DNA of 64,000 bases, taken from Paracidovorax anthurii. Its GTDB lineage: Bacteria; Pseudomonadota; Gammaproteobacteria; Burkholderiales; Burkholderiaceae_C. Numbering within the stretch: the first letter of the stretch is position 1; each line of letters opens with the position of its first letter. The DNA lies in the NCBI RefSeq assembly GCF_003269065.1, contig NZ_QLTA01000017.1:1-64000 (forward strand), read 5' to 3'. Shown here piece after piece: positions 19,766 through 56,584 of the stretch. Position numbers and translations under genes: made by a program. The notes under the pieces are model-generated. The model did not search any database, was not told the origin of the DNA, and saw only the letters and a program-made list of their open reading frames with translations.

Positions 19766-19840
19766 TGGTGGGTGATACATGGATCGAACATGTGACCCCT
19801 GCCGTGTGAAGGCAGTGCTCTACCGCTGAGCTAATCACCC
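19766..19840 (-). tRNA. tRNA-Val(CAC), copy 1 in transcription order
   Basis: 75 nt with encoded CCA, identical in sequence to the downstream copy, 39 bp away. It lies 40 bp after the dnaQ stop on the same strand, so it is probably co-transcribed with dnaQ or has a promoter within the dnaQ end. Confidence 0.95.
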
Positions 19841-36041: not shown

Positions 36042-36497
36042 TCACTTCGCCAGTGCGAGCGTGCCTTTCATGAGGGCCGCATGGCCCGGGAAGGAGCAGA
36101 AATACGCGTAGGTCTCGCCGGCCTTGAGCGCGCTGGTCGCGAAGGTCACCGCATCGGCCTCGCCGCCGCCCACCACCTTGGTGTGGGCCAGCACGCGCTT
36201 GTCGCCCGCCGCGACGTATTCCTTGGCCGCGCCCGCGGCGATGCCGTCGGTCACCACGCCCTGCTGGTCGGCGGCCTTGGACAGCACCCAGTTGTGGCCC
36301 ATGGCGGCCTTGGGCAGCTTGCCCACATGCTTGAGCTTGACGGTGAACTGCTTGCAGCTCGCGGGCACGGCGATGGTGCTCTTGTTGAACTGCATCGCAT
36401 CGTTGCCCTCGATCTCGACCGCGCAATCGGCGGCCCAGACGGGGGCCATGCCAGCGCACAGGGCGATCATCGCCAGGGATTTCCAGATTCTTGCCAT
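36042..36497 (-). CDS. azu: Azurin, periplasmic type 1 copper protein
   Basis: 151 residues: signal peptide (about 1-23, ending PVWA), then the mature cupredoxin beginning [18 protein letters not shown]. Copper ligands are recognisable in GHNWVL (His) and [14 protein letters not shown] (Cys, His, Met). Small electron carrier for respiratory or denitrification enzymes. The ATG at 36497 has AAGGTG about seven bases upstream; a GTG at 36506 is less likely. Confidence 0.95.
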
Positions 36498-36522
36498 TGT
36501 TCTCACCTTTCAGAAAGAGGCG

Positions 36523-36551: not shown

Positions 36552-36644
36552 CATGGCTGCATTCTTCAAGAGGAACGGTTTTCGCCATTTGATGCTCATC
36601 AATTTGGCGGAAATCAAGGCCCGGGACGGGGCCGTGCCGGGACG

Positions 36645-37838
36645 TCAGGCGGGATGCACCGCCTCGCCCAGGTTGAGCATGAGCCGGTTGGCCCAGGCGA
36701 AGATGGCGATCGCGTGGACCAGGTCCAGCACTTCCAGGCGCGTCAAGCCTGCCGCCAGCACCGCCTGCAGCCGTGCGGCCCCGAAAGCGGCCGGCTCGCG
36801 CGTGAGGTCGATCGCCACCTGGACGATGGCCCGCTCGCGCGCGTTCGTCCCCGCGCCCCGTGGCTCGGTGAACACCTGGTGGATCACGTCGTTGCGCTTG
36901 GTCAACTGCTCGAAGCGCTGGGCATGCACCGAGGCGCAGTACACGCAGCCGTTGACGCGCGAGACCACGGCGCTGGCCAGTTCGCGCTCCGCCCGCGACA
37001 GCCCGCCCGGCGCATACATGATGGCGTTGAAGGCGACCGAGCGCTGCTGCAGGATGCGCGGTTGGTGGATCAGCGTCAGGTAGTAGTCCGAGGTCTTGGC
37101 CTTGGGATGGCTCTCCTCCAGCACGGCCAACTGCTCCGGCGTGGCCTGGCCCAGGTCGAGCACGGGCAGCCAGGCCTTCCATCCGAGCGTCTCGCTCGTG
37201 TAGCCGTTCACCCGCACGGGTTCGCCCGGCTGGGGCAGATGGGCGGGATGCACGAACGGTGCGCCCGCGGCTTCCACGGCTGCGGCGCTGGCCGCCGGCA
37301 CGGTGCCCTCGGGCGGCAGCGCCGCCAGCGCCCGCAGGCCCACCACCACCCGCACCTGGTAGGCGACGAAGGCGATCAACTGGGCCAGCGCCACCACCTC
37401 GGGCGTGGACAAACCCGCCCCCGGCAGCGTCAGCAACGCGGCCTTGTCCCCTTCGACGGGCCGGTCCGCCAGCGTGTCGGCGAACGCTAGGATGGCGCCG
37501 AGCCGGGCATCCGCCGCGGCGACATCGGCCCGGGGAGCCCCTTCCAGCGCCGCAGCCTGCGCGGCGGTGAGCACCGCCAGCGCCTGCAGCCGGCCACGGT
37601 AATGCGCCGCGAGGGCCTCGCTGCCCGCCTTGCGGGCGATATGCAAGGCGGCGAGCAGGCGCTCGGCCAGAGCCGGGCCCGCAAGCGCCGGGTCGAGCAA
37701 GCCGTCATGGCTGCCCTGCGTGGCCTGCACGACCTTGTCGCGCTGACGGCGCAGCGCGTGCAGCGCATCGCCGGGGGCCAGCGAGGCGGCTTGATCGACC
37801 ACGTCGGTGGTGGCGGTGGAAGGAAGGGATTGCGACAT
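36645..37838 (-). CDS. Two-domain AhpD-like (CMD) protein
   Basis: 397 residues built of two carboxymuconolactone-decarboxylase/AhpD-like halves. The C-terminal half has the redox/peroxidase motif NGCVYCASVHAQRF (C298, C301, H305); the N-terminal half lacks cysteines and looks structural. Similar CMD domain proteins are annotated as peroxidase-related and often sit beside peptide-type ABC importers. Last gene of the operon, after the BAAT-like hydrolase with a 36-bp gap. Likely detoxifies peroxide or hydroperoxide from the oxygenase step; that role is inference. Confidence 0.8.
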   Translation of the reverse strand: MSQSLPSTATTDVVDQAASLAPGDALHALRRQRDKVVQATQGSHDGLLDPALAGPALAERLLAALHIARKAGSEALAAHYRGRLQALAVLTAAQAAALEGAPRADVAAADARLGAILAFADTLADRPVEGDKAALLTLPGAGLSTPEVVALAQLIAFVAYQVRVVVGLRALAALPPEGTVPAASAAAVEAAGAPFVHPAHLPQPGEPVRVNGYTSETLGWKAWLPVLDLGQATPEQLAVLEESHPKAKTSDYYLTLIHQPRILQQRSVAFNAIMYAPGGLSRAERELASAVVSRVNGCVYCASVHAQRFEQLTKRNDVIHQVFTEPRGAGTNARERAIVQVAIDLTREPAAFGAARLQAVLAAGLTRLEVLDLVHAIAIFAWANRLMLNLGEAVHPA

Positions 37839-37874
37839 GGGAACAGGTCTCCAGCAAAAGGATGCGGCGGCGCG

Positions 37875-39209
37875 TCAGGCCGGCGGGTGGGGGGTGTCGT
37901 CGGTCTCTCTCGCACCTTGCGTGCGCACGGCACGCTCCAGGAACCGCAGCACGCCCGCCCAGGAGGCTTCATCGGCCTGCGCGTTGGGCAGGGCGGCGCC
38001 GCCGGTCGTGCTCTGCCGGCGCGACACCGGATGGGCATACACCAGCTGCGTGGTCGGCAGATAGGGAAACAGGATGGAATGCCCCGCCCCCTCGAAATCC
38101 AGATGCTCGACCGCGTGCGGATGCCGGTGGCGCGCGAGCCGGTCCGCCACCATGCGGCTGTACAGGCTCGACGGCCACGAACCGTCGTCCGTGGCGGACA
38201 GCAGCAGCACCGGCCCCCGGATGCGCTCCACGGCGATGGCCGCGCGCTCCACCGCCTCGGGGTCCTGCAGCGCCGTCAGTAGCGCGTGGGCATGGCGGCG
38301 CGGCTGCGGGCCGTCGTCCCAGGGCTTCCAGGTGGCCGTGCGGTTGTTCTCCCAGAGGTGCGGCAATGCCTGGCCACGGTAGAGCCACGCCGGGCCCTCG
38401 CGCCCCGTGGCCGGGTCGCAGGCGTTCTGCGCGCTGTGCACCACCGCCCCCGGCACATAGCCGATGACGGCGGACACGAGCGAGGGGAACATCGAACCGA
38501 GCAGCAGCACCAGTTCGCCGCCGCGCGACTGGCCGCTGAGTGCCACGAATCCACGGCGCGGGCGCAGCGTGCGGTGCACCCATTCCAGCGCCGTCTCGAA
38601 GTATTCGAGGGGGGTGTTGGAGATGTAGTCCGGGCGCCCCGGCGCCTTGAAGTAGCCCAGGGCCAACGCGGCGTAGCCGTGCGAGGCATACAGCGCCGCG
38701 CGCGGCTCGTTCATGCCGCCGCCCGAGCCATTGAGCACGACCACCACGGGATGGCCTTGCCCGTCCGCCCGCGCGGGCGGCGTGTAGAGCACGGCGGTCA
38801 GGCCGTCCTCGCGCACCTCCCGGCGCGCGACGCCTTCGGCGGCCAGCCGCTGCACCACGTCCGCTTCCCATGCCTGCGCCCCGCCCCGCCGCATCGTGAT
38901 GCGCGTGGTGAGCGCCGCCGCCGGCTCGGCGGAGAACAGCTCGCGCGCCGCCGCGCCCTCATCGGGCACCTGGGACCACCACAGTCCCATGGGCGAGATG
39001 CCGCCGTAGCTGCCCGCCACGGGGGCATCGCGCGCGAGGTCCACGCTGCCCCGCGCGTCGGCGGCGAAGGTGGCCGCCGCGCGCCATGCCACGCCGGGGC
39101 CCCGCACCGTGGCGCTGTGGAGGGTGACCTGTTCACCGGCCGCCAGCCCGGTGACACGCACGTGGCGGGGAACGTCGATCAGCGCATCGGCGGGCGTGAT
39201 GTGCAGCAT
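37875..39209 (-). CDS. Acyl-CoA thioesterase / BAAT-type alpha/beta hydrolase
   Basis: 444 residues: N-terminal beta-sandwich (PRHVRVTGLAAGEQVTLHSA) and a C-terminal alpha/beta hydrolase. The nucleophile elbow reads GQSRGG, so Ser rather than the Cys of mammalian amino acid N-acyltransferases; acid in SATDDGSWPSSLY and His in GAGHSILFPY. Likely hydrolyses an acyl ester, thioester or amide. The ATG at 39209 has GGAG seven bases upstream; a GTG at 39221 is less likely. It starts 18 bp after the solute-binding protein stop, within the LysR-headed operon. Confidence 0.82.
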   Translation of the reverse strand: MLHITPADALIDVPRHVRVTGLAAGEQVTLHSATVRGPGVAWRAAATFAADARGSVDLARDAPVAGSYGGISPMGLWWSQVPDEGAAARELFSAEPAAALTTRITMRRGGAQAWEADVVQRLAAEGVARREVREDGLTAVLYTPPARADGQGHPVVVVLNGSGGGMNEPRAALYASHGYAALALGYFKAPGRPDYISNTPLEYFETALEWVHRTLRPRRGFVALSGQSRGGELVLLLGSMFPSLVSAVIGYVPGAVVHSAQNACDPATGREGPAWLYRGQALPHLWENNRTATWKPWDDGPQPRRHAHALLTALQDPEAVERAAIAVERIRGPVLLLSATDDGSWPSSLYSRMVADRLARHRHPHAVEHLDFEGAGHSILFPYLPTTQLVYAHPVSRRQSTTGGAALPNAQADEASWAGVLRFLERAVRTQGARETDDTPHPPA

Positions 39210-39227
39210 GCCGGGCTCCACGCGGCC

Positions 39228-40802
39228 TTACTTCGCCACCCGGGTGACCTGCAGCGCCGTGGTGCGGTCGCTCAGCAGCGGCACGACCTTCAGGCCCTTC
39301 CTGGAGGCCCAGATGTTCTGGTAGTGGAAGAGCGGGATCTGGCCCACGTCGTCGGTCACCAGCTTGGCGGCATGGCGGAACACGGCCTCGCGGCGCTGGC
39401 TATTGAACTCCACCGTGGCGGCGTCCAGCGCCTTGTCCACGGCCTCGTTGCTGTAGCGCCCCCAGTTGTTGGAGCCCCGGCCGCGCTGGGCGTCGTTGGT
39501 GGCCAGTGTCTGCAGCAGGCCATAGCCGGCCTCGCCCGTGCCGTTGCCCCAGGCGATCACGCTCACCGCGAACTCGTTCTTGTTGGCGCGGCTCGAATAG
39601 ACGGCCCATGGCACGACCTCGACCTTGGTCTTCACGCCCACGCGGCTCCAGAACTGGGCCACGGCCTGCACGGTCTCGGGCGCCTGGGGGTAGCGGTCGC
39701 CCGGCACGTGGATGGTGAGCTGGAAGCCCTGCGGAAAGCCGGCCTCGGCCAGCAGCTTCCTGGCCTGGTCCGGGCTGTAGGCGATGTCCTTGACGTCGGG
39801 GTTGTAGCCGAAGCTGCCCTTGGGCATCCACTGGTTGGCTTCCGTCACGGTGCCCTGCAGCACGCGGTCGGTGATGGCCTTGCGGTGGATGGCCACCGAC
39901 AGCGCCTGCCGCACGCGCACGTCGCGCAGCGGGTTCTCCGCCAGCGGCTTGCCCGCGTTGTCGGTAATGAACTCGTTCTGGCCGGGCCGGAAGCTGGGCT
40001 GCAGCAGCAGCACGCGCAGGCCCGGATACGTGTACACGCTCACGCTGGGCGTCTTGCGCAGCTTCTCCACGTCGGTGACGGCCACCTTGTCGATCACGTC
40101 CACGTCGCCCGCCAGCAGCGCGGCCGTACGGGCGGCGCCGTTGTTGATGAAGCGGTAGTTGACCTTCTCCCACAGCGGCTTGTCACCGTAGTAGCTGCTG
40201 CTGCGCTCGAACACCGTGCGGTCGCCCGGCACGTACGAGACGAATTTGTAGGGGCCGGTGCCCACCACGGCGCGGCCGGCGTTGTAGTCCTCGGTCCTGG
40301 ATTTCTCGCCCACGTGCTTGCTCACGATGTAGATCGACGCGATCTCCAGCGGCAGCATGGGGTTGGGCGTATGGGTCTTGACGATCACCGTGTGCGGGCC
40401 CTTGGCGGTGGTGGATTCCACCGTGCGCAGCGCCCCGGAGTACGACGCCACGCTGCCCGGCACGCTGCGCGCGCGCTGGAACGAGTAGACGATGTCGTCG
40501 GCCGTGAAGGGCACGCCGTCCTGCCACTTCACGTCCGTGCGCAGCTTGAACTCCCAGGTCTTGTCGTCCAGCACCTTCCAGCTGGTGGCCAGGCCCGGCT
40601 CCAGCTTGCCGCCGTCGCGCGAGTTCACCAGCGAGTCCCAGAAATGCAGCGCCAGCGAACGGTCGCCCGCGTGGTTGTTGAGCTGCGGATCGACGGACGA
40701 GACCGGGTCGGCGAAGCCGATGGAGAGGGTCTGCGCGGAAACGCCGGCGGCGCCGGCCCACAGGGCGGCGGCCAGGACGGCGGCGGAAGGTCGGATCTGC
40801 AT
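39228..40802 (-). CDS. ABC importer solute-binding protein, family 5
   Basis: 524 residues with a signal peptide (about 1-24, ending AGVSAQ) and the family 5 fold for peptides, nickel or oligosaccharides: DPQLNNHAGDRSLALHFWDSL, KWQDGVPFTADDIVYSFQRA, GTGPYKFVSYVPGDR, VRQALSVAIHRKAITDRVLQG. Captures the substrate in the periplasm for the two permeases encoded upstream. Substrate not deducible; companions suggest a modified or acylated small molecule rather than a plain dipeptide. The ATG at 40802 is preceded by AAAGGAA. Confidence 0.92.
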   Translation of the reverse strand: MQIRPSAAVLAAALWAGAAGVSAQTLSIGFADPVSSVDPQLNNHAGDRSLALHFWDSLVNSRDGGKLEPGLATSWKVLDDKTWEFKLRTDVKWQDGVPFTADDIVYSFQRARSVPGSVASYSGALRTVESTTAKGPHTVIVKTHTPNPMLPLEIASIYIVSKHVGEKSRTEDYNAGRAVVGTGPYKFVSYVPGDRTVFERSSSYYGDKPLWEKVNYRFINNGAARTAALLAGDVDVIDKVAVTDVEKLRKTPSVSVYTYPGLRVLLLQPSFRPGQNEFITDNAGKPLAENPLRDVRVRQALSVAIHRKAITDRVLQGTVTEANQWMPKGSFGYNPDVKDIAYSPDQARKLLAEAGFPQGFQLTIHVPGDRYPQAPETVQAVAQFWSRVGVKTKVEVVPWAVYSSRANKNEFAVSVIAWGNGTGEAGYGLLQTLATNDAQRGRGSNNWGRYSNEAVDKALDAATVEFNSQRREAVFRHAAKLVTDDVGQIPLFHYQNIWASRKGLKVVPLLSDRTTALQVTRVAK

Positions 40803-40846
40803 GGAGGATTCCTTTGGAAAACAGGCGAACGAGAGGGAAACGGCCG

Positions 40847-41872
40847 TCAGGACATTTCGTTGAGATGGCAGGCGCTTTCGTGGCGCACGGCGATGCCGCG
40901 CAGCCGCGGCACCTCGGTGCTGCAGCGCGGCATCGCTTGCGGACACCGCGGGTGGAAGTGGCAGCCGGACGGCGGCGCGATCGGGCTCGGGATCTCGCCC
41001 CGGATGGCACCAAAGCGCGTGCCCCGCGCGCCGATGCGGGGAATCTCCGCCAGCAGCGCCTTCGTATAGGGGTGGCTGGGGCGCGCGAACAGCTCCTCGA
41101 CCGGCGCGCTCTCCACCACCCGGCCCAGGTACATCACGGCCACGCGGTCGCACAGGTGCTCGATCACGCCCAGGTCGTGGCTGATGAACAGATAGGCCAG
41201 GCCCAAATCGTCGCGCAGGTCCATGAACAGGTTCAGGATCTGCGCCTGGATCGACACGTCCAGCGCGGCCACCGCCTCGTCGCACACCAGCAGCGCGGGC
41301 TGCACGGCCAGCGCGCGGGTGATGCCGATGCGCTGGCGCTGGCCTCCGCTGAACTGGTGCGGGTAGCGGTGGCGCAGCGCCGGATCGAGTCCGGCGCGTT
41401 CGAGCTGGGCGCTCACGTAGTCGTCCTCGCCCGCGGCATCGGTGAGCCCGTGCAGGCGCGCCGCCTCGCCCACGATGCGCGAAACGCGCAGGCGCGGGTT
41501 CAGGCTGGCGAACGGGTCCTGGAACACCATCTGCGTGCGCAGCCGGGCGGCCAGGCGCTGCGGGCCTGCCAGGGACTGCAAGGGCCGGCCTTCGACCAGT
41601 ACCCGCCCCTGCGTCGGCTCCAGCAGCCCGGCCGCGATGCGGCCCAGGGTGGACTTGCCGCAGCCCGATTCGCCGACCAGGCCCACGACCTCGCCGGGGC
41701 GCACCTGCAGGTCCACGCCGTCCACCGCATGGGTCACGACCGGCGGCCTGGACACGCCCAGGCGCTGCAGCGCCCGCCCCAGCCGGCCCGGCGCGGGCCG
41801 GGCGCCGAAGCGCTTGGCCACGCCCTGCAGTTCCACCAGCGGGGCGGCTTGCCTGTCGGCCTGCGCGCTCAT
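40847..41872 (-). CDS. Peptide-type ABC importer ATPase (DppF-like)
   Basis: 341 residues: Walker A GESGCGKSTLG, Q-loop VFQDPFASLNPRL, signature FSGGQRQRI, Walker B LLVCDEAVAALDVSIQAQ, switch ISHDLGVIEHL, and the C-terminal oligopeptide-ABC extension with cysteines (FHPRCPQAMPRCST). It overlaps the preceding ATPase gene by 4 bp (ATGA). Confidence 0.94.
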   Translation of the reverse strand: MSAQADRQAAPLVELQGVAKRFGARPAPGRLGRALQRLGVSRPPVVTHAVDGVDLQVRPGEVVGLVGESGCGKSTLGRIAAGLLEPTQGRVLVEGRPLQSLAGPQRLAARLRTQMVFQDPFASLNPRLRVSRIVGEAARLHGLTDAAGEDDYVSAQLERAGLDPALRHRYPHQFSGGQRQRIGITRALAVQPALLVCDEAVAALDVSIQAQILNLFMDLRDDLGLAYLFISHDLGVIEHLCDRVAVMYLGRVVESAPVEELFARPSHPYTKALLAEIPRIGARGTRFGAIRGEIPSPIAPPSGCHFHPRCPQAMPRCSTEVPRLRGIAVRHESACHLNEMS

Positions 41873-42885
41873 GCCGCCACCTCCCGCGCCACCGCGGGGC
41901 CCGGCCCCGGATGGAAGCAGCGCACCTCATGCTGCGGCGCCTCGGGGCGCGGGCGGGTGATCTCCGGCCGCGCCGCGCAGGCGGCGCTGGCACGGTCGCA
42001 GCGCGCCGCAAAGGCACAGCCCTGCGGCATCTGCAGCAGGTTGGGCGCCATGCCGGGAATCTGCCGCAACCGCTCGCCGCGCCGGTTGGCGCTCGGCAGG
42101 CTGCCGATCAGCCCCTGGGTGTAGGGATGCTGCGGATGGTCGATCACCTCGTCCACCGTGCCGCGCTCGACGATGCGCCCGGCGTACATCACGGCGACCT
42201 GGTCGGCCAGTCCCGCCACCACCGACAGGTCGTGGCTGATCCAGATCAACGAGGTGCCGCGCTCGCGCACCAGCTTCTGCACCTCGGAGAGGATCTGCGC
42301 CTGGATGGTCACGTCCAGCGCCGTCGTGGGCTCGTCGGCAATGATGAGGTCCGGCCCGTGGAGCATGGCGATGGCGATGGCCACGCGCTGGCGCATGCCC
42401 CCCGACAGCTGGTGCGGATAGGCCTTGAGGCGTTCCCCGGGGGCGGGGATGCCCACCAGTGCCAGCGCGTCGGCCGCGCGCGTGCGCGCCTGGGTTGTTG
42501 AGACGCGGCTGTGCGCGCGCACCGCCTCGATCATCTGCGTGTCCACCCGCAGCACCGGGTTGAGCGTGGCCATGGGGTCCTGGAAGATCATCGCGATGCG
42601 GTTGCCCCGCAGCGCGCGGCGCGCGGCCGGCGGCAGCCGGGTGATGTCCCGGCCCTGGAACAGCACCTCGCCCTCCTCCACCCGCCCGGGCGGATCGACC
42701 AGACCCATGATGGAAAAGCCGGTGACCGACTTGCCCGAGCCGGACTCGCCCACCAGGCCCAGGACCTGGCCGCGCCCCAGCGCGAAGGAGACGCCATCGA
42801 CCACCGGCAGCACGCCCGCCCGCGTATGGAAGCGCGTGTGCAGGTTGCGCACCTCCAGGGTCGGAAGATCAGGAGCCTCGCTCAT
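41869..42885 (-). CDS. Peptide-type ABC importer ATPase (DppD-like)
   Basis: 338 residues: Walker [27 protein letters not shown], signature [15 protein letters not shown], Walker [33 protein letters not shown], and the Cys-rich C-terminus ([19 protein letters not shown]). Partner of the second ATPase. It overlaps the permease stop (42882-42885) and the next ATPase start by 4 bp each. Confidence 0.94.
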
Positions 42886-43781
42886 TTCTGCAGCCTCGGG
42901 TTGAGCACATCGCGCAGTTGGTCGCCCACGAGATTGATCGCGACGATGGTGGCCAGCAGCGCCAGGCCGGGAAAGAAGCTGATCCAGTACTCGTTGGACA
43001 GCAGGTACTGGTAGCCGTTGGAGATCAGCAGGCCCAGCGATGGCTCGGTGATCGGCACGCCCAGGCCCAGGAACGACAGCGTGGCCTCCAGCGTGATGGC
43101 GCGCGCCACCTGCAGCGCGCCGATCACGAGCAGCGGCGGCAGGCAGTTGGGCAGGATGTGGCCGGTGAGGATGCGCCAGGGCGGAATGCCCTGCCCGCGC
43201 GCCGCCTCCACGTACTCGCGCCGCGCCTCCACCAGCGCCTGGCCGCGCGCGGTGCGCGCGTAGTAGGCCCATTCGAGCAGCACCAGCGTAAGCACCACGT
43301 TGCCGATGCCCTTGCCCATGTACGCCAGGATCATGAGCGCCATGAGGATGGTGGGGAACGACAGCAACAGGTCCACCAGCCGCATCAGCAAGGCATCCAC
43401 CCGGCCGCCGGCATAGGCCGCCACGAGCCCGACGAGCGTGCCCAGCACGGCCGCGACCACGGCGGAGCCCACGCCCACCAGCAGGCTGATGCGCAGCCCG
43501 TAGAGGATGGCCGAGTACAGGTCGCGTCCCTGGCCGTCGGTGCCGAGCCAGTAGGTGTGCGTGCCCTCGCCGTTGAGCGATCCGGGCTTGAGGCGCGCAT
43601 CCAGCACGTCCAGTTGCGTCAGGTCATAGGGGTTCTGCGGCGTGATCCACGGCGCGCACAGGGCCGCCAGCGCGAGCAGCACGAGCACGGCCAGGCCGGC
43701 CAGCGCCACGCGCGACTGCAAAAAGTCTGCCCCCACGCGCCACCACAGCGAGCGCTCGTCGAAAGTGCGGGCCGCGCTCAT
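42882..43781 (-). CDS. Peptide-type ABC importer permease (DppC-like)
   Basis: 299 residues with the N-terminal OppC-type segment (WLGTDGQGRDLYSAILYGLR) and about six membrane helices; EAA-like coupling loop EYVEAARGQGIPPWRILTGHILPN. Its ATG overlaps the stop of the other permease by 4 bp. Confidence 0.94.
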   Translation of the reverse strand: MSAARTFDERSLWWRVGADFLQSRVALAGLAVLVLLALAALCAPWITPQNPYDLTQLDVLDARLKPGSLNGEGTHTYWLGTDGQGRDLYSAILYGLRISLLVGVGSAVVAAVLGTLVGLVAAYAGGRVDALLMRLVDLLLSFPTILMALMILAYMGKGIGNVVLTLVLLEWAYYARTARGQALVEARREYVEAARGQGIPPWRILTGHILPNCLPPLLVIGALQVARAITLEATLSFLGLGVPITEPSLGLLISNGYQYLLSNEYWISFFPGLALLATIVAINLVGDQLRDVLNPRLQK

Positions 43782-44752
43782 CGGGCGGCCTCCAGGCGCA
43801 CGCGCGGGTCGAGCAGCCGGTAGGCCAGGTCCACCAGCAGGTTCAACACCACGAAGATCAGCACCACCACCATCAGGTAGGCCACCACCACGGGGCGGTC
43901 CAGCGCGTTGATGCTGTCCAGGATCAGCTTGCCCGCACCCGGCCAGGCGAAGATCGACTCGGTCACCACGGCATAGGCGATGGTCGATCCCAGTTCCAGC
44001 CCCAGCACCGTGACCAGGGGAATCATGGTGTTGCGGAGCACGTGCATGAGCACCACGCGCAGCGGCGACAGGCCCTTGGCCCGAGCGAACTTCACGAAAT
44101 CCTGCGGCAGCACCTCGCGCACGCCGGCGCGGGTGAGGCGCAGCACCAGCGAAATCTTGAACAGCGCCAGATTGAACGCGGGCAGCAGCAGGTGGTGCCA
44201 GCCGTCCAGCGTGAGCCAGGACCATTGCACGCCCAGCCACTCGCGCGTGGCGCCGCGCCCGCTGGCCGGCATCCAGCCCAGCTGCACGCTGAACACCATG
44301 ATCAGCATGAGCGCGACCCAGAAGGCCGGCAGGGAAAAGCCCACGATGCTGACAGACATGAGCAGCTTCGAGGCGGGATGGTCCGGCTTCATCCCGGCGA
44401 ACAGGCCCAGCGGCACGCCCAGCAGCACGGCCATCAGCAAGGCGGCCACGGCCAGCTCCAGCGTGGCGGGCAGCCGGCCCAGAATCAGGCGCACCGCGTC
44501 TTCCTGGTAGACGAAGCTCTTGCCCAGATGCCCCTGCAGCGCGCCTTCCACGAAGGCGACGTACTGCTGCCACAGCGGCTTGTCGAGGCCCAGCCGGGCG
44601 ATCGCCGCGAGGCGCTCCTGCTGGTTCATGTCGTCGCCGATCAGGATGTCCACCGGGTTGCCGATGGAATGCAGGCCCACGAAGACGATCACCGTCATCG
44701 CGGCCACGACCAGCGCCGCCTGGGCCAGCCGGCGCAGCAGCCAACCCGTCAT
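43778..44752 (-). CDS. Peptide-type ABC importer permease (DppB-like)
   Basis: 324 residues: first helix LAQAALVVAAMTVIVFVGLH, large periplasmic loop, and the EAA loop DFVKFARAKGLSPLRVVLMHVLRN before the last helices. Its start overlaps the monooxygenase stop by 4 bp, so transport and oxidation genes are translated together. Confidence 0.94.
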   Translation of the reverse strand: MTGWLLRRLAQAALVVAAMTVIVFVGLHSIGNPVDILIGDDMNQQERLAAIARLGLDKPLWQQYVAFVEGALQGHLGKSFVYQEDAVRLILGRLPATLELAVAALLMAVLLGVPLGLFAGMKPDHPASKLLMSVSIVGFSLPAFWVALMLIMVFSVQLGWMPASGRGATREWLGVQWSWLTLDGWHHLLLPAFNLALFKISLVLRLTRAGVREVLPQDFVKFARAKGLSPLRVVLMHVLRNTMIPLVTVLGLELGSTIAYAVVTESIFAWPGAGKLILDSINALDRPVVVAYLMVVVLIFVVLNLLVDLAYRLLDPRVRLEAAR

Positions 44753-46275
44753 GAAGCCACCCGCTCGGCAGGCGGATCGGCGGCCGGGCTGGCGGCCACG
44801 TCCTCGTAGGCGGGGAACTCCGCGGCCACCCATTCGGTGCCGTCCAGCTCCGGCTCGCTGAAGCGGCCCATCGCCGCATAGTGGTGCCCGACGTCCTCGG
44901 CCAGCAGTTGAGCGGCCAGGCCGCGTGCCAGGCGCTGCGCGCCATCGGTGATCTGGGGAATGTCCCCCGCGCCGGCACCGTGCGACAGCGCGGCGGCATA
45001 GTTGAAGCAGTGCACGCGCTCCAGGCCGGGCAGCGCGCCCGGCACCTTCGGCTGGAACTCGAAGAGAGGGCCCAGATCGGGCGACTCGGCCAGCTCCAGG
45101 TCGTCCTCGCCCGGCACCGGCGCGAACCGATCCCGCCAGACGCGCACATGCGGCGCGAGGCGGGCGAATTCGGGGCGCTGCGCCCAGTCGGTGCGAAAGC
45201 CCGTGCAGAAAATCACGAAGTCGGCCGCAAGCGGCCCCTTGCCCGTCTCCAGGCGCAAAGCGCCATCGCTGCGCACGCTGGCCGAGGCCACCGGGGTCTG
45301 CAGGTGGAAATGCGCGTTGGCGTGGCGCGAGACGCGCAGCGTGCTGCCATGGGGCGGCGGCACCTGCTGCACGTTGATGTAGTGGCGAAAGCGCCATTTC
45401 CACTCGTCGGGCAAGGCATGGAAGCCCTGGGACATGCCGGGGTTGCCGGCGCCCTTGCCCTTGTTCACGCGCGGCAGGTCGCCGCGGCGGATCAGCAGAT
45501 CGGCCCGCGCCGCTCCCGCCTCCAGCGCCGTGGCTGCGGCATCCATGGCCGATGCGCCGCCGCCGATGACGGCCACGCGCAAGCCCCGCAGCGACTCGCC
45601 CGCCCATGCATGGGAGGAATGCGCCCAGCGGTCGCGGGGCAGTTGCGAGGCCCAGTCCGGCACCCAGGGGCCGCCCAGCCCGTCGCGCCCGGTGGCCAGC
45701 ACCACATGGCGGGCGAGCACCTCGTACGGAGCACCGCCGCCCGCCTCGTCCACGAGGCCCAGCTGCACCAGGCCGTCGGCCCGCGGCAGCACGTCGCGCA
45801 CGTGCTGCCGGTTGCGCACGTCCAGGCCCAGCACCTGCCGGTACCAGCGCAGATAGTCCATCCACTGCAGGCGCGGAATCTTGTCCAGCGCCTCCCAGGC
45901 CGCCCCGCCGAACTGCGCCTCGAACCAGGCGCGGAAGGTGAGCGCCGGCAGGCCCAGCGCCGGCCCCGTCAGCTCCTTGGGCGAGCGCAGGGTCTCCATG
46001 CGCGCCGTGGTCGCCCATGGCCCTTCGAAGCCCGCCGGAGAACGGTCGAAGATCCGCACCTGCACGCCCAGGTGCGTGAGCGACGCGGCCAGCGTGAGCC
46101 CGGCCATGCCACCGCCCACGATGGCGACGTCCAGCACGGCCGCGCCGTCCTGGGTGCGCTCGGGCACCCAGCGCCTCGCCGGCTGGCACAGCCACTGCAG
46201 GTCCTGCCGCAGCCGGGCTTCCAGGGCCGGCAGGCCGGCTCCGGGGATCAGCGGGGAAACGGGAGTGGGATTCAT
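44749..46275 (-). CDS. Flavin-dependent monooxygenase (FMO/lysine-hydroxylase-like)
   Basis: 508 residues of the NAD(P)H/FAD two-dinucleotide-binding fold: FAD motif VGGGMAGLTLAASL near 54-67, second Rossmann motif VIGGGASAMDAAATALE, and FCTGFRTDWAQRPEF. Related to class B monooxygenases that hydroxylate amines or insert oxygen beside carbonyls. A 48-residue N-terminal extension precedes the FAD domain. Second gene of the operon, overlapping the LysR stop by 4 bp. Substrate presumably comes in through the ABC system. Confidence 0.82.
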   Translation of the reverse strand: MNPTPVSPLIPGAGLPALEARLRQDLQWLCQPARRWVPERTQDGAAVLDVAIVGGGMAGLTLAASLTHLGVQVRIFDRSPAGFEGPWATTARMETLRSPKELTGPALGLPALTFRAWFEAQFGGAAWEALDKIPRLQWMDYLRWYRQVLGLDVRNRQHVRDVLPRADGLVQLGLVDEAGGGAPYEVLARHVVLATGRDGLGGPWVPDWASQLPRDRWAHSSHAWAGESLRGLRVAVIGGGASAMDAAATALEAGAARADLLIRRGDLPRVNKGKGAGNPGMSQGFHALPDEWKWRFRHYINVQQVPPPHGSTLRVSRHANAHFHLQTPVASASVRSDGALRLETGKGPLAADFVIFCTGFRTDWAQRPEFARLAPHVRVWRDRFAPVPGEDDLELAESPDLGPLFEFQPKVPGALPGLERVHCFNYAAALSHGAGAGDIPQITDGAQRLARGLAAQLLAEDVGHHYAAMGRFSEPELDGTEWVAAEFPAYEDVAASPAADPPAERVAS

Positions 46276-47282
46276 CGGGAGACCTTTCGAGCGGCCCTGG
46301 CGGGCTGCTCCTCATGGGGGGTGCGGGCTTGCAGCAGCTGCGCGTGCGCGCCCACGTCGTGTTGCACGAAACCGGGCACGGCGCGCGCGGCCTCCAGCAG
46401 CGCATCGGCCACGGCGGTCACGTGCGCCGTCGGCGGGCGCGCCTGCGGCACCACCACGCCGAAGAAAAAAGGGATGTGCACGTCCAGCGGCCGCACCGCC
46501 AGGCCATCGTCCGGCGCGGCCCGCGCCGTCAACGGCTCCAGCACGGCCACGCCCAGGCCGGCACGCACCAGGGCCTGGGCATTGATGGAGGCATTGGTTT
46601 CGATCAGCGCCTCGCGGGCGCCGCCCTCGCCCGCAGCACCCGCAGGCAGGCCCGCATCGAGGCGCTGGCGCAGCCGGTACGGGTTGCTCATCGTGATCAG
46701 CCGGCGCTCGGCCAGTGCGGCCATGGGCACCACGGCATGCCGCGCCAATGGGTCTCCGGCCGGCAACACCGCCACGCACGGCACCTCGCCGATCCAGAGC
46801 ACCTGCAGGCCCCGGTGTTCCAGCGGCAGGCTGCTGGCGCCGAGCTGCACGGTGCCGGACACCACGGCATGCACCACCTGCTCGGGCGATGCCGATCGCA
46901 GCCGCAGCGCGCCCGCGCCGAACCGGGCCTCGACCCCGCCCAGCGCCTGTGGCAGCAGGCCGACGGCCAGCGCCGAGGTGGCGGCCAGCACCAGCGGCGC
47001 GACGCCCCCGCCCCGGGCGATTTCCGCCGCGCGCTCATGGATGTGGCGCAGCCCGCCCAGGGCCCGCTCCACGTCGTCGTAGAGAAGAAAGCCCTGCTCC
47101 GTCGGGGTGACGCGCGGGCCGTTGCGCTCGAACAGGGCATAGCCGATCTCGGCCTCCAGCTCCTGCACCAGGCGCGTGATGGCAGGCTGCGAGCGCGACA
47201 GAAGGCGCGCCGCCGCCGTCACGCTGCCCGCCGACATGACGGCGGCAAACGCTTCAAGCTGCCGTATTTCCATGGAATTCAT
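46272..47282 (-). CDS. LysR-type regulator, first gene of its own operon
   Basis: 336 residues. N-terminal winged helix (MEIRQLEAFAAVMSAGSVTAAARLLSRS) and a LysR effector domain. Unusually, it is not divergent from its likely targets: its stop overlaps the monooxygenase start (ATGA at 46272-46275), so it is co-transcribed with them. ATG at 47282 is used; the ATG at 47273 (MEIRQLEAF) is equally good. Confidence 0.92.
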   Translation of the reverse strand: MNSMEIRQLEAFAAVMSAGSVTAAARLLSRSQPAITRLVQELEAEIGYALFERNGPRVTPTEQGFLLYDDVERALGGLRHIHERAAEIARGGGVAPLVLAATSALAVGLLPQALGGVEARFGAGALRLRSASPEQVVHAVVSGTVQLGASSLPLEHRGLQVLWIGEVPCVAVLPAGDPLARHAVVPMAALAERRLITMSNPYRLRQRLDAGLPAGAAGEGGAREALIETNASINAQALVRAGLGVAVLEPLTARAAPDDGLAVRPLDVHIPFFFGVVVPQARPPTAHVTAVADALLEAARAVPGFVQHDVGAHAQLLQARTPHEEQPARAARKVSR

Positions 47283-47323: not shown

Positions 47324-47346
47324 ACAAATAATAAAACCGCATTTGT
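47324..47346. promoter_or_regulatory. LysR-type T-N11-A inverted repeat
   Basis: ACAAAT-N11-ATTTGT is a perfect 6-bp inverted repeat with the T-N11-A spacing of LysR recognition sites, 42 bp upstream of the LysR start, in an AT-rich patch between that gene and yigZ. Confidence 0.65.
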
Positions 47347-48150: not shown

Positions 48151-49563
48151 ATGGGCGAATCGCTCGATGTCGTCATCATCGGGGGCGGGTCCGCGGGCCT
48201 GGCGGCGCTGCGCGAAGTGCGCAAGCGCACCGACCGCTACCTGCTCGTCAACGACGGCCCCTGGGGCACCACCTGCGCCCGCGTGGGCTGCATGCCCTCC
48301 AAGATGCTCATCGAGGCGGCCAACGCCTTCCATGCCCGGCACAAGCTCCAGGCCTTCGGCATCCACGGTGGCGACCAGCTCACCGCCGAGCTTCCCGCCG
48401 TGCTGGCGCGCGTGCGGAAGCTGCGCGACGAATTCGTGGCCGGCACGCTGAAATCGACCGACGGGGATGCGCGCGCCATCTCGGGCCGCGGGCGCCTGCT
48501 GGACGCGCACCGTGTGGACGTGGGCGGAAAGGTGCACCGCGCGCGCAGCATCATCATCGCCACGGGCTCCCGCCCCCGGGTCCCGGAGCCCTGGCTGGCC
48601 TTCGACGACCGCATCCTCACCACCGACACGCTGTTCGAGCAGCCCACGCTCGGCCCCCGCATGGCCGTGGTCGGCCTGGGGCCGCTGGGCGTGGAGATGG
48701 CCCAGGCGCTCTCGCGGCTCGGGATTGAGGTCACGGCATTCGGCACGCGGGAGACCGTTGCCGGCCTGACCGATCCGGAGGTCAACGCCGCCTTGCGGGA
48801 ACGGCTCGAAGGCGAATTCACGGTCCACGTCGGCGGCGACGTCGAACTGCGCGAAGTGGCCGGTGGCATCGAGGTCGACAACGGCACCGCCACCGTCGTG
48901 GTGGACCAGGTGCTGGCCGCCATGGGCCGCCAGCCGAACATGGAGCATCTGGGGCTCGACACCCTGGGCGTGGATCTGGACGACACAGGCCTGCCGCCGA
49001 TCGACCCGCGCTCGCTGCAGGTGGGCGACCTGCCTGTCTTCGTGGCGGGTGATGCCGATGGCGACCGCCCGTTGCTGCACGAGGCCGCGGACGAAGGCCA
49101 CATCGCCGGACTGAACGCGCTGGCGCGCAAGCCGCGCGGGTTCCAGAGGCGCACGCGCCTCTCCATCGTCTTCAGCCAGCCGAATGCCGCCGTGATCGGC
49201 CACCGCCATGCGGCGCTGAAAGACCAGGAGGTGGTGACCGGCCACGTGGACTTCGCACGCCAGGGCCGCGCCCGCGTGGCGCAGTGCGACCACGGGCGGC
49301 TGCACGTATATGCCGGGCGCGACACCGGCCGGCTGCTGGGCGCCGAGCTGTGCGCGCCCTCGGGCGAGCACATGGCCCACCTGCTGGCCCTGGCCGTCGA
49401 TCGCGAACTGACCGTGCAGGACCTGCTGCGCATGCCCTTCTACCACCCGGTGCTGGAGGAAGGCCTGCGGACCGCGCTGCGGGACGCCGCCGCGCAGCTG
49501 CCGCGCACCAGCGACTCCGACCTTTCCGCATGCAGCGCCTACGGGGCGAGCGCCCTGGACTGA
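48151..49563 (+). CDS. Dihydrolipoyl dehydrogenase-like flavoprotein, no lipoyl domain
   Basis: 470 residues. FAD motif IIGGGSAGLAALREV at 9-23, redox pair GTTCARVGCMPSKM, NAD motif VVGLGPLGVEMAQAL, and C-terminal MPFYHPVLEEGLRTAL with a conserved His-Glu region in place of the standard HPTLSE. A class I disulfide oxidoreductase: possibly a soluble E3 or a mycothione/quinone-type reductase. Not linked to any E1/E2 gene here, and the window already has the complex-specific lpdA. GGGAGG lies before the ATG. Confidence 0.85.
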   Translation: MGESLDVVIIGGGSAGLAALREVRKRTDRYLLVNDGPWGTTCARVGCMPSKMLIEAANAFHARHKLQAFGIHGGDQLTAELPAVLARVRKLRDEFVAGTLKSTDGDARAISGRGRLLDAHRVDVGGKVHRARSIIIATGSRPRVPEPWLAFDDRILTTDTLFEQPTLGPRMAVVGLGPLGVEMAQALSRLGIEVTAFGTRETVAGLTDPEVNAALRERLEGEFTVHVGGDVELREVAGGIEVDNGTATVVVDQVLAAMGRQPNMEHLGLDTLGVDLDDTGLPPIDPRSLQVGDLPVFVAGDADGDRPLLHEAADEGHIAGLNALARKPRGFQRRTRLSIVFSQPNAAVIGHRHAALKDQEVVTGHVDFARQGRARVAQCDHGRLHVYAGRDTGRLLGAELCAPSGEHMAHLLALAVDRELTVQDLLRMPFYHPVLEEGLRTALRDAAAQLPRTSDSDLSACSAYGASALD

Positions 49564-49904: not shown

Positions 49905-51047
49905 CTAGCGGATGCGCGCCGGCGACAGCCCCGCCACGTCCACGCCCTGCCGCTCCAGGGCAGCATCGGGCGGCTCGCGCAGCAGCAGCCCCCGCGCCAG
50001 CAGCGAGGCGCCGGCGGCGCTCTGGATGCCATAGCCGCCCTGTCCCGCGAGCCAGAAAAAGCCCTCGACGTGGTTGTCCCAGCCGATGACCATGTCGCCA
50101 TCCGCCACGAAGGACCGCAGCCCCGCCCAGGTGTGCGAGGGCCGCCGGATCTGGAAGGTGGTCATCTGCTCGATGTTCCAGATGCCCGTGGCCACGTCCA
50201 GCTCCTCCGGCACCACGTCGTGCGGATGCGTGGGGTCGGCGTTGGCCGGCGAGCCCAGCAGTTGCCCGGCATCGGGCTTGAAGTAGAAGCTTTCATCGAT
50301 CCCCACCACCGCCGGCCAGCGCGCCGCATCCATGCCGGGCGGCACGGGGAAGGTGAAGGCGGTGCGCCGCCGGGGCTCCAGGCCGATGGCGGGCACGCCG
50401 GCCATGGCGGCCACCGCATCGGCCCAGGCGCCCGCGGCATTGACGATGGCGCCGGCGTGCAGCACCTCGCCCGAGGCGAGGCCGACGCGCCAGCCCCCCG
50501 CCTCCCGTGCGATGGAGCTCACCCCGGCCTCCGTGCGCAGCTGGCCGCCGCGCTGGCGCATGCCCCGCAGGTAGCCCTGGTGGAGCGCATGGACGTCGAT
50601 GTCGGCGGCCCCCGGCTCGCTCATGCCGCAGGCCACGGCCTCGGGGCGCAGGCAGGGCAGCCACTCCAGCAGCCGTTCGCGGGACACCTTCTCCACGTTC
50701 GGAGAGTGCGCCAGGGCCTGCGCGTAGGCCTCCTCCAGCAGATCCAGCTGGTCGGGCCCGGCCACGTACACCACGCCGCGCGGCGAGAGCAGCGGCTCGT
50801 CGCCGCAGAAGCCGGCGGGCGGCTGCTCGTAGAACGCCCGGCTGGCGCGCGTCAGCGCCTGGATGTTGGGCGTGCCGTAGGTCTCCATGTAGAGCGCGGC
50901 GGAGCGGCCGGTGGTGTGGTAGCCCGGCTGCGACTCGCGCTCCAGCACCAGCACGCCCGGGCCGGACGCCGCATGCGCGAGCTGCCAGCCGATGGAGGCG
51001 CCCGCGATGCCGGCGCCGATGACGAGAAAGTCCACGGAATCGCCCAT
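49905..51047 (-). CDS. D-amino acid oxidase/dehydrogenase-like FAD protein
   Basis: 380 residues, DAO fold: FAD-binding VIGAGIAGASIGWQLAH at about 9-25, ERESQPGYHTTGRSAALYMETYG, and the C-terminal GQGGYGIQSAAGASLLARGL. Deaminates a D-amino acid or glycine-like substrate, passing electrons to oxygen or the respiratory chain. Last gene of the cluster led by dsdA, 20 bp after the amidase. Substrate is not certain; its neighbours favour D-amino acids. Confidence 0.83.
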   Translation of the reverse strand: MGDSVDFLVIGAGIAGASIGWQLAHAASGPGVLVLERESQPGYHTTGRSAALYMETYGTPNIQALTRASRAFYEQPPAGFCGDEPLLSPRGVVYVAGPDQLDLLEEAYAQALAHSPNVEKVSRERLLEWLPCLRPEAVACGMSEPGAADIDVHALHQGYLRGMRQRGGQLRTEAGVSSIAREAGGWRVGLASGEVLHAGAIVNAAGAWADAVAAMAGVPAIGLEPRRRTAFTFPVPPGMDAARWPAVVGIDESFYFKPDAGQLLGSPANADPTHPHDVVPEELDVATGIWNIEQMTTFQIRRPSHTWAGLRSFVADGDMVIGWDNHVEGFFWLAGQGGYGIQSAAGASLLARGLLLREPPDAALERQGVDVAGLSPARIR

Positions 51048-51067
51048 GCCCTGTGCCCTTTCTTCCG

Positions 51068-52630
51068 TCAGACGGCCGATGCCTGGGCCGAGCCGTGGCG
51101 GGCGGAGCCGTCGGCACGCGGCAGGCCCTTCGCGTCGCACGGGTCGGGCGCCGTGGTGACGATGGAGTCCAGCGCCGGCTCCACGGGGGCGAGCCGGTCC
51201 AGCGCGGGACGCGGCCGCCGCAGCCCGTCGATGCCCGCGAAGGCCTGCTCCATGGCGCGGCCGACGGCCAGGGTGCCGAGGTCGTCCCGGAAGCGCCCCA
51301 CCACCTGCAGGCCGAAGGGCATGCCGCAGCCGTCGCGGCCGCAGGGCAGGCTGAGCGCGGGGTGCGTGGTGAGCGTGGTCACGTAGGTCAGCGCCAGCCA
51401 GCGGTAGTAGTTGGCCTGGGGCTCGCCGTTGATGTGGCTGGCGTACAGATCGGTCCAGGGGAACGGCGATACCGGCGTGGTCGGCGCGAGGATCACGTCG
51501 AACTCTTCGAAGGCCCGCTGGAAGCGCGCGAGGATGCGCGTCTGCTCGGCCTGCGCCCAGGCGCTGTCGAGCAGCGTCATGGTCGCGCCCATCTCGTAGT
51601 TGGCGCGGGTGTTGGGCCCCAGGCTGGCGGGGTCGCGCTCGTAGGCCTCGCGGGTGCCGGCCACGAAGGCCTCGGCGCGCAGCACGTCGAAGCAGCGGTG
51701 CACGTCGCCCAGGTCCAGCGAAAGGGCATCGCAGCTCTGGAACAGGTGGCGCATGGCGGCGATCTTCTGGCGGAAGACGGCACGGATGCCCTCGTCCACG
51801 GCGCAGGCGCCGAAGTCCTCGGTGTAGCCCACGCGCAGCCGGGACAGGTCCACCTCGGGCAGCGCCAGGAAGGCGCCGGGGTCCAGCGGGTAGCTGAGAG
51901 GGTCGCCGGCCGACATGCCCGCCGTGGCCGCGAGCTGCAGGCAGGCCTCTTCCACGGTGCGCCCCATGGGGCCCACGACGGAGATGGGCGTCCAGCCCAG
52001 CAGCTTGCGCGAGCTGGGCACCACGCCCGGCGAGGGCCGGAAGCCCACCACGCCGCACTTGGCGGCGGGAATGCGCAGCGAGCCGCCCGTGTCGGAGCCG
52101 GTGCACACGGGCAGCATGTCGCAGGCCAGCGCCGCCGCCGATCCGCCCGAGGAGCCGCCCGCGTTCAGGCGCGGATCGAAAGGGTTGCCGGTGGCACCCC
52201 AGACGGTATTGCGCGAATTGGCCCCCGCGCCCATCTCGGGGATGTTGGTCTTGCCCGTGACGATGGCGCCGGCCCGGCGCAGGCGCGCCACGAGCACGTT
52301 GTCCTCGGCGGGGATGTGCTCGCGGTAGATCTGCGAGCCGTAGGTGGTGAGCAGGCCCGCCGTGGCCTCCAGGTCCTTCACGCCCAGCGGCAGGCCGTGC
52401 AGCAGGCCCAGGGCGTCGCCACGCAGCACGGCCTGCTCGGCCGTGCGCGCCTCGGCGCGCGCGCGGTCGTAGCAGGTGGCGGTGATGGCGTTCACGTACG
52501 GGTTCACCGCCTCGATGCGGGCGATGCATGCCTCCAGCAGTTCGACGGGCGATATCTGGCGGGCGCCGATGCGGCGGCGCAGTTCGGGGGCGGTCAACTC
52601 GACCAGCGAGGAGGTGGCGGCAGAGGTCAT
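51068..52630 (-). CDS. Amidase-signature hydrolase
   Basis: 520 residues. The Ser-cisSer-Lys triad is intact: K85 in GVKDLEAT, S160 in LNAGGSSGGSAA and S184 in TGSDTGGSLRIPA. Hydrolyses a carboxamide or N-acyl bond in the cytosol. In this cluster it could release a D-amino acid from an amide or N-acyl form before oxidation or deamination; that is inference from context. Confidence 0.9.
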   Translation of the reverse strand: MTSAATSSLVELTAPELRRRIGARQISPVELLEACIARIEAVNPYVNAITATCYDRARAEARTAEQAVLRGDALGLLHGLPLGVKDLEATAGLLTTYGSQIYREHIPAEDNVLVARLRRAGAIVTGKTNIPEMGAGANSRNTVWGATGNPFDPRLNAGGSSGGSAAALACDMLPVCTGSDTGGSLRIPAAKCGVVGFRPSPGVVPSSRKLLGWTPISVVGPMGRTVEEACLQLAATAGMSAGDPLSYPLDPGAFLALPEVDLSRLRVGYTEDFGACAVDEGIRAVFRQKIAAMRHLFQSCDALSLDLGDVHRCFDVLRAEAFVAGTREAYERDPASLGPNTRANYEMGATMTLLDSAWAQAEQTRILARFQRAFEEFDVILAPTTPVSPFPWTDLYASHINGEPQANYYRWLALTYVTTLTTHPALSLPCGRDGCGMPFGLQVVGRFRDDLGTLAVGRAMEQAFAGIDGLRRPRPALDRLAPVEPALDSIVTTAPDPCDAKGLPRADGSARHGSAQASAV

Positions 52631-52709
52631 GGCGGGCGCCGTGCGGGGCGGCGTTGTCTCGGAATGGGAAGGCAGGAGGCCGGGCGCGCACGGCGCCCGG
52701 CCACGGCGG

Positions 52710-53693: not shown

Positions 53694-53750
53694 GGCGATC
53701 TCTCCGGGAGTGGCGAAAGGGTCAAAGGGTCGGTGGTGGAAAACGCGCGG

Positions 53751-55121: not shown

Positions 55122-55198
55122 AGCGTGGGGTGCAGGGTCTTTGGCTGCATTCTTGCCGCGCCCCCGTCCACCGCACAACGCATTTATATTGACGCCAG

Positions 55199-55215
55199 CA
55201 TTAGTTTCAATAATG
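55199..55215. promoter_or_regulatory. LysR-type operator overlapping the LysR start codon
   Basis: CATTAGTTTCAATAATG is a near-perfect palindrome (CATTA-N7-TAATG) with T-N11-A spacing. Its right arm contains the ATG of the LysR gene at 55213. Suited both to autorepression and to activation of dsdA on the other strand. Confidence 0.65.
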
Positions 55216-56241: not shown

Positions 56242-56553
56242 ATGACCACGCCCTTGATCCACACCCTGGCTACCGCGCGCAAGGCCCGGGGCATGACCCA
56301 GGCCGAGCTGGCCGAGCGCGCCGGCCTCTCCCGCATGACCGTGCAGCGCACCGAGGGCGGCGACCTCGACCCGCGCTTTTCCACCCTGGCGGAAATGGCC
56401 CGCGTGCTGGGGCTGGAGGTGATCGCCGTCCCGGCCGCCCTGCGCGCCGAACTCGACGCCTTCGTCCAGTCCGGCGGCCGGTTCCTGGCGCAGCCCGCCG
56501 GCGCGGACGCCCCGCCCTCCATCGTGGACGGGCTGGGCCGCGACCCCGCCTGA
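56242..56553 (+). CDS. hipB: HipB-type antitoxin, XRE family
   Basis: 103 residues: helix-turn-helix KARGMTQAELAERAGLSRMTVQRTEGGDLDP at about 14-44, then a hydrophobic dimer region and a flexible tail ending DGLGRDPA. It lies 31 bp before hipA on the same strand, with an inverted repeat directly upstream. Neutralises HipA and represses the operon, by family. Confidence 0.85.
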   Translation: MTTPLIHTLATARKARGMTQAELAERAGLSRMTVQRTEGGDLDPRFSTLAEMARVLGLEVIAVPAALRAELDAFVQSGGRFLAQPAGADAPPSIVDGLGRDPA

Positions 56554-56584
56554 GCGGCCGCCACCGGACGCGACGGAGCCCGCG

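Follow-up and report, generated by a model that had tools for sequence, protein, structure and literature searches.

Gene content of the locus

The window analysed here is a 64-kb stretch of Paracidovorax anthurii DNA (contig NZ_QLTA01000017.1, positions 1 to 64,000), and the subject of this work is a set of nine open reading frames (ORFs), all on its minus strand within positions 36645-47282, which combines a LysR-family regulator, a flavin monooxygenase (FMO), an ABC importer, a BAAT-type hydrolase and a fused CMD/AhpD protein. A first-pass annotation of this DNA had proposed the same composition and coordinates, and both were right, all nine families being recognised as follows:

46272..47282, minus strand: LysR-family regulator, gene 1, 336 amino acids (aa) (Pfam HTH_1 and LysR_substrate)
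44749..46275, minus strand: FMO, an FAD/NAD(P)H class B-type flavin monooxygenase, 508 aa (Pfam, motifs, AlphaFold model and tree)
43778..44752, minus strand: ABC permease, Opp/Dpp/NikB type, 324 aa (BPD_transp_1; Opp2B at 258 bits, under the cut-off of 350)
42882..43781, minus strand: ABC permease, Opp/Dpp/NikC type, 299 aa (BPD_transp_1 and OppC_N)
41869..42885, minus strand: ABC ATPase, OppD type, 338 aa (ABC_tran and oligo_HPY)
40847..41872, minus strand: ABC ATPase, OppF type, 341 aa (ABC_tran and oligo_HPY)
39228..40802, minus strand: periplasmic solute receptor, SBP family 5, 524 aa (SBP_bac_5, 304.5 bits)
37875..39221, minus strand: BAAT/acyl-CoA thioesterase-type hydrolase with a Ser nucleophile, GTG start, 448 aa (Bile_Hydr_Trans and BAAT_C)
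36645..37838, minus strand: fused CMD/AhpD protein, last gene, 397 aa (TIGR01926, 221.7 bits)

As had also been noted, the first six genes are joined by 4-bp overlaps (-4 bp at 5/5 junctions); the subsequent gaps measure +44, +6 and +36 bp.

The FMO carries two dinucleotide-binding motifs on one chain together with a EGPWATTARMETLRSPK block and a class B fold, which assigns it to the class B enzymes. An invariant His (H219) lies within a WAHSS stretch, and the full identifying motif of FMOs and Baeyer-Villiger monooxygenases (FMO/BVMO), which sits around the linker, was not matched. In a structure comparison covering the families on the VIA list, the AlphaFold model was close to SMFMO and to ornithine N-hydroxylases. 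SMFMO and the ornithine/lysine N-hydroxylases PvdA and SidA share the fold and the layout of two dinucleotide domains with the FMO, but only about 14-22% sequence identity.

The CMD fusion exceeded the cut-off of the peroxidase-related, AhpD-like model TIGR01926 (81.8 bits), and matched TIGR04030 (182 bits, cut-off 233.15) and TIGR04029 (98.2 bits, cut-off 100.75) over nearly their full length, in both cases under the cut-off. Its C-terminal, AhpD-type domain has the full E-x11-C-x2-C-x3-H motif at residues 286-305, the relay that is the signature of AhpD, whereas the N-terminal domain is of the TIGR04029 type and contains no Cys. The description of this protein as double AhpD-like thus holds for one of its two domains, and the peroxide protection ascribed to it was a guess with which the motif of that domain agrees and the Cys-free domain does not. 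Across loci the motif was present in 120/120 C-terminal domains (the best one per locus; this and the following motif counts are per locus and include the window and some near-duplicate loci).

In the BAAT protein, alignment with human ACOT4 (3k2i) places a Ser, not a Cys, at the nucleophile position along with the Asp and the His, as in the BAAT/ACOT family. All 54 BAAT loci matched over 380 columns, the window among them, have the string GQSRGGE, and 53/54 have DD-x2-W; GAGH occurs in only 13/54, yet the His of the window protein aligns with that of ACOT4. The SBP_bac_5 receptor, two BPD_transp_1 permeases and two oligo_HPY ATPases in one cluster make up an Opp/Dpp-type importer, which may transport peptides. 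No curated NCBIfam model that carries a substrate was reached by the FMO, the receptor or the BAAT protein.

Conservation of the operon and of the FMO-CMD pair

Named genomes were scanned with an alignment of 15 FMOs (A1), and of at least 566 relatives the 80 with the best scores were taken as named loci; the scan worked through FMO motifs characteristic of the clade, and gene starts came from a codon-usage-based gene caller. All nine genes occur in the order and on the strand seen in the window in 46/80, so the arrangement is not due to chance; locus L064 keeps this order too, although some of its genes are fragmented. The nine-gene form is therefore not scattered among relatives, and the proposal of a single import-plus-oxygenation unit with a LysR gene of its own at the head was upheld. 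The BAAT gene is missing in 18/80, all titled Pseudomonas (L082 and L083 additionally without a LysR call); nine loci have LysR-FMO-CMD only (eight Cupriavidus and one Paraburkholderia), two have FMO-CMD only (L127, L140), and four are short contigs or have the FMO alone (L063, L074, L075, L125). The 4-bp overlap was kept at 57/64 FMO-permease, 48/64 permease-permease, 48/63 permease-ATPase and 28/60 ATPase-ATPase junctions. When 300 genomes of the order were searched with the FMO, 15 besides the window's own had matches at 57-74% identity (E 1e-180 or better).

When the other genes of the 80 loci were clustered, the 30 largest clusters were mostly lineage-specific families. One 125-aa gene occurs in nine loci; in the six listed, all Herbaspirillum, it starts within 33 bp of the CMD end. 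The Pseudomonas form is followed by genes for a chalcone isomerase-like protein and a DUF3833 protein, plus VipA of the type VI secretion system in L093; an N-acetyltransferase was not found among the six genes scanned after this form.

The importer beside the FMO-CMD pair varies. Apart from the Opp type of the window, we found a TctC receptor (L042, L044-L046, L049), Liv-type ABC genes (L041, L202), polar amino acid ABC genes (L187, L188, L192, L195, and L191 of R. etli, where the CMD pair lies on the opposite strand), Pot-type ABC genes (L197, L198, L200, L201) and a TIGR04028 importer (L035). Of the 17 genomes from the genus of the window, 16 carry a single FMO type at E 1e-100. In five it is the Opp type (the window, L238-L240 and the degraded remnant L241); in the other eleven it is a type of about 60% identity, and the nine of these that were examined (all but G1018 and G1020) are TctC-FMO-CMD throughout. 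In L241 (G1025 contig 1) the nine-gene operon has decayed: LysR and FMO are fragmented, and most of the region running from permease C to BAAT is gone. Since both the BAAT gene and the entire Opp importer are dispensable in other lineages, the core consists of the monooxygenase and the CMD/AhpD protein only, which weakens the first-pass idea of a whole set devoted to one compound.

This pairing was also apparent in a tree (IQ-TREE) of 149 FMO-family proteins, reduced to 80 by dereplication at 80% identity. The clade of the window's FMO comprises 50 rows (support 100/93), of which 45 have a CMD gene within 8 kb, as against 0/30 rows outside it; three of the 45 (L184, L185, L188) had been recruited via TIGR04030 and not via the FMO. 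The five clade rows without the partner are L204 and L196 (no CMD), L125 and L048 (TctC; the latter ends at the FMO) and L074 (an 8-kb contig). Rows L059 and L205 have long branches and are of unsure placement. The A1 profile matched in 27 of 385 genomes from the class of G333; among 20 regions taken from the 32 matches listed, the CMD pair occurs only in L210, the sole one inside the CMD clade. The FMO hence belongs to an unnamed monooxygenase branch with a near-constant CMD/AhpD partner, while importers swap. Each of L055, L057 and L058 has a pair of divergent genes from the wider FMO family at a short distance from one another, in L055 as direct neighbours.

The wider family also includes relatives linked to uraD or uraH, presumably HpyO-type urate hydroxylases to judge from gene context, which share family membership with the window's FMO through A1 profile matches or, for L203, through 38% identity to the R. 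etli FMO. A ring hydroxylation would follow the same pattern in the window: the FMO would act like HpyO on a purine- or hydantoin-like heterocycle and the CMD protein would replace UraH/UraD in opening or decarboxylating the product. The CMD family does include true decarboxylases, uraD and/or uraH lie within 8 kb of FMO relatives in L203 (Priestia), L216, L218-L221 and L226, and hydantoinase/oxoprolinase genes adjoin the CMD pair in L199 of Ketogulonicigenium. However, the six dereplicated rows with uraH/uraD within 8 kb all fall on separate branches outside the CMD clade and have no CMD partner, neither uraH nor uraD is present among the nine genes or in the scanned flanks, the surroundings of the window form showed no recognisable purine gene, and the AhpD thiol motif is present in every C-terminal domain (120/120). 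We consider this reading very improbable.

The closest organisational parallel is an NCBIfam group of unassigned function, TIGR04027-TIGR04030 (KPN_01854/KPN_01858 and Avi_7169/Avi_7170 families), which likewise combines a peptide-type ABC importer with a flavin monooxygenase and TIGR04029/TIGR04030 CMD proteins. Its genes encode the receptor TIGR04028, permeases, an ATPase, a luciferase-like monooxygenase and a CMD fusion; in Pantoea a gene for an M20 amidohydrolase comes next. The monooxygenase is luciferase-like and uses FMN in that group, as opposed to the class B FAD enzyme of the window; a Liv-type ABC is known with both (L041 for the window's FMO form, L175-L177 for the other). In the window's own genome the TIGR04027 cut-off of 412.9 bits was not reached, the best of the weak luciferase-family matches (45.2 bits) lying on another contig, and the window's receptor scored 91.1 bits against TIGR04028 (cut-off 468.5). 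Because the window proteins fall under these cut-offs, the operon is not a member of the group, although it appears to work like this sister group with another oxygenase. A hybrid occurs in L035 (L035:9326-17281), where a window-type FMO (72% identity) stands beside proteins above the cut-offs of TIGR04028 (859.9 bits), TIGR04029 (186.2) and TIGR04030 (285.8), this importer-CMD set being on the opposite strand to the FMO. TIGR04030 was above its cut-off in 14/398 genomes of the phylum. The earlier remark that no named pathway has this composition accordingly needs qualification: NCBIfam describes the sister group, while searches of open PMC text, to which coverage was confined, brought up no paper naming the operon or its substrate (PMC5315480 may list a relative).

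The regulator gene and its upstream box

The best NCBIfam model for the regulator was NF008239, at 164.5 bits and under its cut-off of 288. The gene starts at ATG 47282 or, as in most aligned relatives, at ATG 47273. Two features flank the operon:

47325..47345, unstranded: inverted repeat CAAAT-N11-ATTTG, a LysR-type T-N11-A box, about 50 bp upstream of ATG 47273
36618..36633, minus strand: putative weak terminator-like hairpin 3' of the last gene, not significant

The strict form of the box has a single match in the entire window. In 19 aligned upstream regions, including that of the window, pairwise identity rises from 0.33-0.35 in columns -160 to -80 to 0.48-0.63 between -80 and the start. 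The search for the box covered 65 upstream regions, the window's among them, with a pattern defined post hoc from the alignment of the close loci. A looser form was found in 10/19 close regions (mean 0.185 and maximum 2 in 200 mononucleotide shuffles, made on the close regions only) and in 25/46 further ones, including those of Achromobacter and of the short Cupriavidus form; it is missing in 9 close and 21 further loci. The strict box was absent from 22 of the 24 TctC and other non-Opp loci checked. The conservation of the box upstream of lysR suggests that the operator probably lies before this gene, as would fit an autoregulated single unit. The first-pass annotation had called the operon self-amplifying. 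The box supports autoregulation, which may be activating or repressing, but does not show amplification. Terminator-like sites were no commoner than in shuffles (3 seen, 3.2 expected) and no sigma-70-like site turned up in the promoter scan, so these scans add nothing.

Candidate substrates and surrounding genes

The reading that we favour, and to which we give an even chance of being correct, is that an amino-acid-derived conjugate is taken up and oxygenated at N or S, the BAAT protein acting as a deacylase and the CMD/AhpD protein handling the oxidised product. The compound is most likely conjugated, that is, acylated, esterified or peptide-like. It would be taken up by the SBP family 5 receptor and the Opp-type importer, after which the Ser-nucleophile hydrolase would strip an acyl or ester group, the NADPH/FAD-dependent FMO would oxygenate a nucleophilic N or S atom, and the Cys-x2-Cys relay of the CMD/AhpD protein would reduce or process the oxidised product, or else peroxide leaked by the flavoenzyme; the order of these steps is the one we infer. 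LysR would bind the T-N11-A box in front of lysR and respond to the compound, and the nine genes would form one transcription unit for import and oxidative breakdown. This reading is supported by the importer types, the class B fold and the opine dehydrogenase-like genes found in eight loci (L140, L184, L185, L195, L197, L198, L200 and L201; that of S. meliloti was assigned by homology to the A. fabrum gene).

Several observations weigh against this proposal. The 4-bp overlap between LysR and FMO is kept in only 18/75 junctions. The variety of importers, with TctC and Liv types among them, implies that substrates may differ between forms, and the Pseudomonas form without BAAT indicates that hydrolysis is not essential to the pathway. 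The fold is common to SMFMO, N-hydroxylases, thioredoxin reductases and YpdA, and so does not by itself fix the reaction, and because some relatives outside the clade adjoin uraH/uraD, hydroxylation of ring carbon is probably among the reactions of the wider family.

The Bacillus subtilis Cmo/Yxe systems for cysteine salvage follow the same logic of an importer with a flavin monooxygenase. By analogy, an S-substituted cysteine derivative (a thioether, or an N-acyl or peptide form) could be imported here, the FMO oxygenating the S atom and breaking the C-S bond, the AhpD domain reducing the resulting sulfenic acid and the hydrolase removing the N-acyl or peptide part. Reduction of the sulfenate is a required step of the Cmo route (PMC10863075), and the Pantoea luciferase-type sister system with its M20 amidohydrolase resembles Yxe with its deacetylase YxeP (PMC9706529). 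The excerpted descriptions of Cmo/Yxe include an N-acetyltransferase and a deacetylase and mention no CMD/AhpD pair. Conversely, none of the nine window genes encodes a luciferase-family oxygenase, an N-acetyltransferase or a deacetylase. CmoO and CmoJ are luciferase-family enzymes.

A second link to sulfur is E. coli YciW, a two-domain CMD protein and a homologue of the window's CMD fusion, the match taking in most of YciW (23% across 344 aa, E 2e-18); a review reports a CysB-binding motif upstream of its gene (PMC10821248). YciW, however, lacks the CxxC motif, and its gene has fabI and rnb as immediate neighbours. The pair in R. etli L191 and R. tumorigenes L195 adjoins genes for a SufS-like desulfurase, a metallo-beta-lactamase-fold (MBL) protein and TauE, in two arrangements, and the R. 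etli MBL protein matches the model of the Blh sulfur dioxygenase at 534.7 bits, albeit under the cut-off of 625. L184 also has SufS and Lrp homologues, and S. meliloti L198 has a gene for TauE. On these two Rhizobium plasmids the SufS-like, MBL, TauE exporter and Lrp regulator genes form a cluster that looks like one for oxidation and export of cysteine sulfur. On several other plasmids a long distance separates the SufS-like genes from the FMO place listed, about 360 kb in Ensifer adhaerens CP098808, 44 kb in Aminobacter MSH1 and 180 kb in N. galegae CP090096 (where a second FMO place is unlisted). No sulfur gene was recognised in the scanned flanks of the window form or among the recurrent neighbours of the 80 named loci, most neighbour clusters being without identification. 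In view of these distances we keep sulfur salvage as a rival only, despite the initially strong R. etli and R. tumorigenes clusters, and regard it as unlikely.

Some of the same plasmids point to metals. An opine-type or other metal-binding amino-acid compound could be imported and dismantled, or protected against, under metal stress or limitation. The R. etli L191 locus has a cation diffusion facilitator (CDF) transporter and a metal-sensing repressor, L195 a heavy-metal ATPase, and an ArsR/SmtB-family regulator adjoins the CMD pair in L194. The sections of a Mesorhizobium association study that report candidates for growth on nickel list an opine dehydrogenase, a 'flavoprotein involved in K+ transport', a peroxidase-related enzyme and polar amino acid ABC genes, at frequencies of 0.86-1.00 among serpentine strains as against 0.00 among the remaining ones (PMC5315480). 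These genes (denovo003265-003273) correspond to the FMO-CMD-polar amino acid ABC-opine dehydrogenase composition of L195, a likeness drawn from the annotations given there and not from sequence comparison, but they belong to an 86-kb accessory cluster with metal efflux genes, which makes hitchhiking likely. In Klebsiella, KPN_01858, the namesake of TIGR04027, is raised under iron limitation according to PMC7194016. The nickel and iron clues are both indirect, and L192, L197, L198, L200 and L201 have no annotated metal transport or resistance gene. We hold this reading to be decidedly unlikely. Partial clues thus point to sulfur, metal and purine compounds alike, and none of these readings is demonstrated by them.

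The operon could also serve detoxification and not nutrition, a toxic plant or microbial compound, imported or entering anyway, being disarmed by oxygenation and AhpD chemistry. Several of the carrier genera are plant-associated, many of the plasmid records name plants as their source, and in A. fabrum a MATE efflux gene directly follows the CMD pair. A high-affinity importer ahead of a detoxifying enzyme would be costly, though, and the presence of a receptor within the unit, in those forms that have one, points to nutrient uptake; we find a protective role hard to credit.

Returning to oxygenation of an amino-acid conjugate, the FMO branch and its near-obligate CMD/AhpD partner might constitute a portable two-protein module, combined with five or more unrelated kinds of importer (Opp, polar amino acid, Pot, Liv and TctC) and with a luciferase-like enzyme able to replace the flavoprotein. 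Such a module may be a general way of oxidatively opening amino-acid conjugates, in which AhpD thiol chemistry would be a catalytic step rather than mere peroxide defence; we put this forward tentatively and with some doubt. Operons of this kind would define the diet or neutralising range of soil- and plant-associated Burkholderiales, Pseudomonas, rhizobia and Pantoea. The FMO-CMD pairing predicts a flavin monooxygenase that requires an AhpD-like partner, and it joins the TIGR04029/TIGR04030 proteins, the FMO branch and YciW, all of them sparsely annotated as to function, into one question.

Around the operon, the next gene on the same strand encodes azurin (36042-36506, 138 bp 3' of the CMD gene). 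Dihydrolipoamide can be used by AhpD, which lends interest to a nearby plus-strand gene for a dihydrolipoamide dehydrogenase-like disulfide oxidoreductase (48151-49563); in the genus relatives L238-L240 it did not turn up within the 20-kb regions surrounding the operon. Further on, positions 49905-56175 hold a catabolic-looking cluster on the minus strand with a DAO-type oxidoreductase, an amidase, a TctC receptor and a PALP enzyme, from which a LysR gene at 55237 diverges. A HipA-type kinase gene preceded immediately by a 103-aa ORF (56242-57922) possibly forms a HipBA pair, and two tandem tRNA-Val (CAC) genes lie at 19652-19840.

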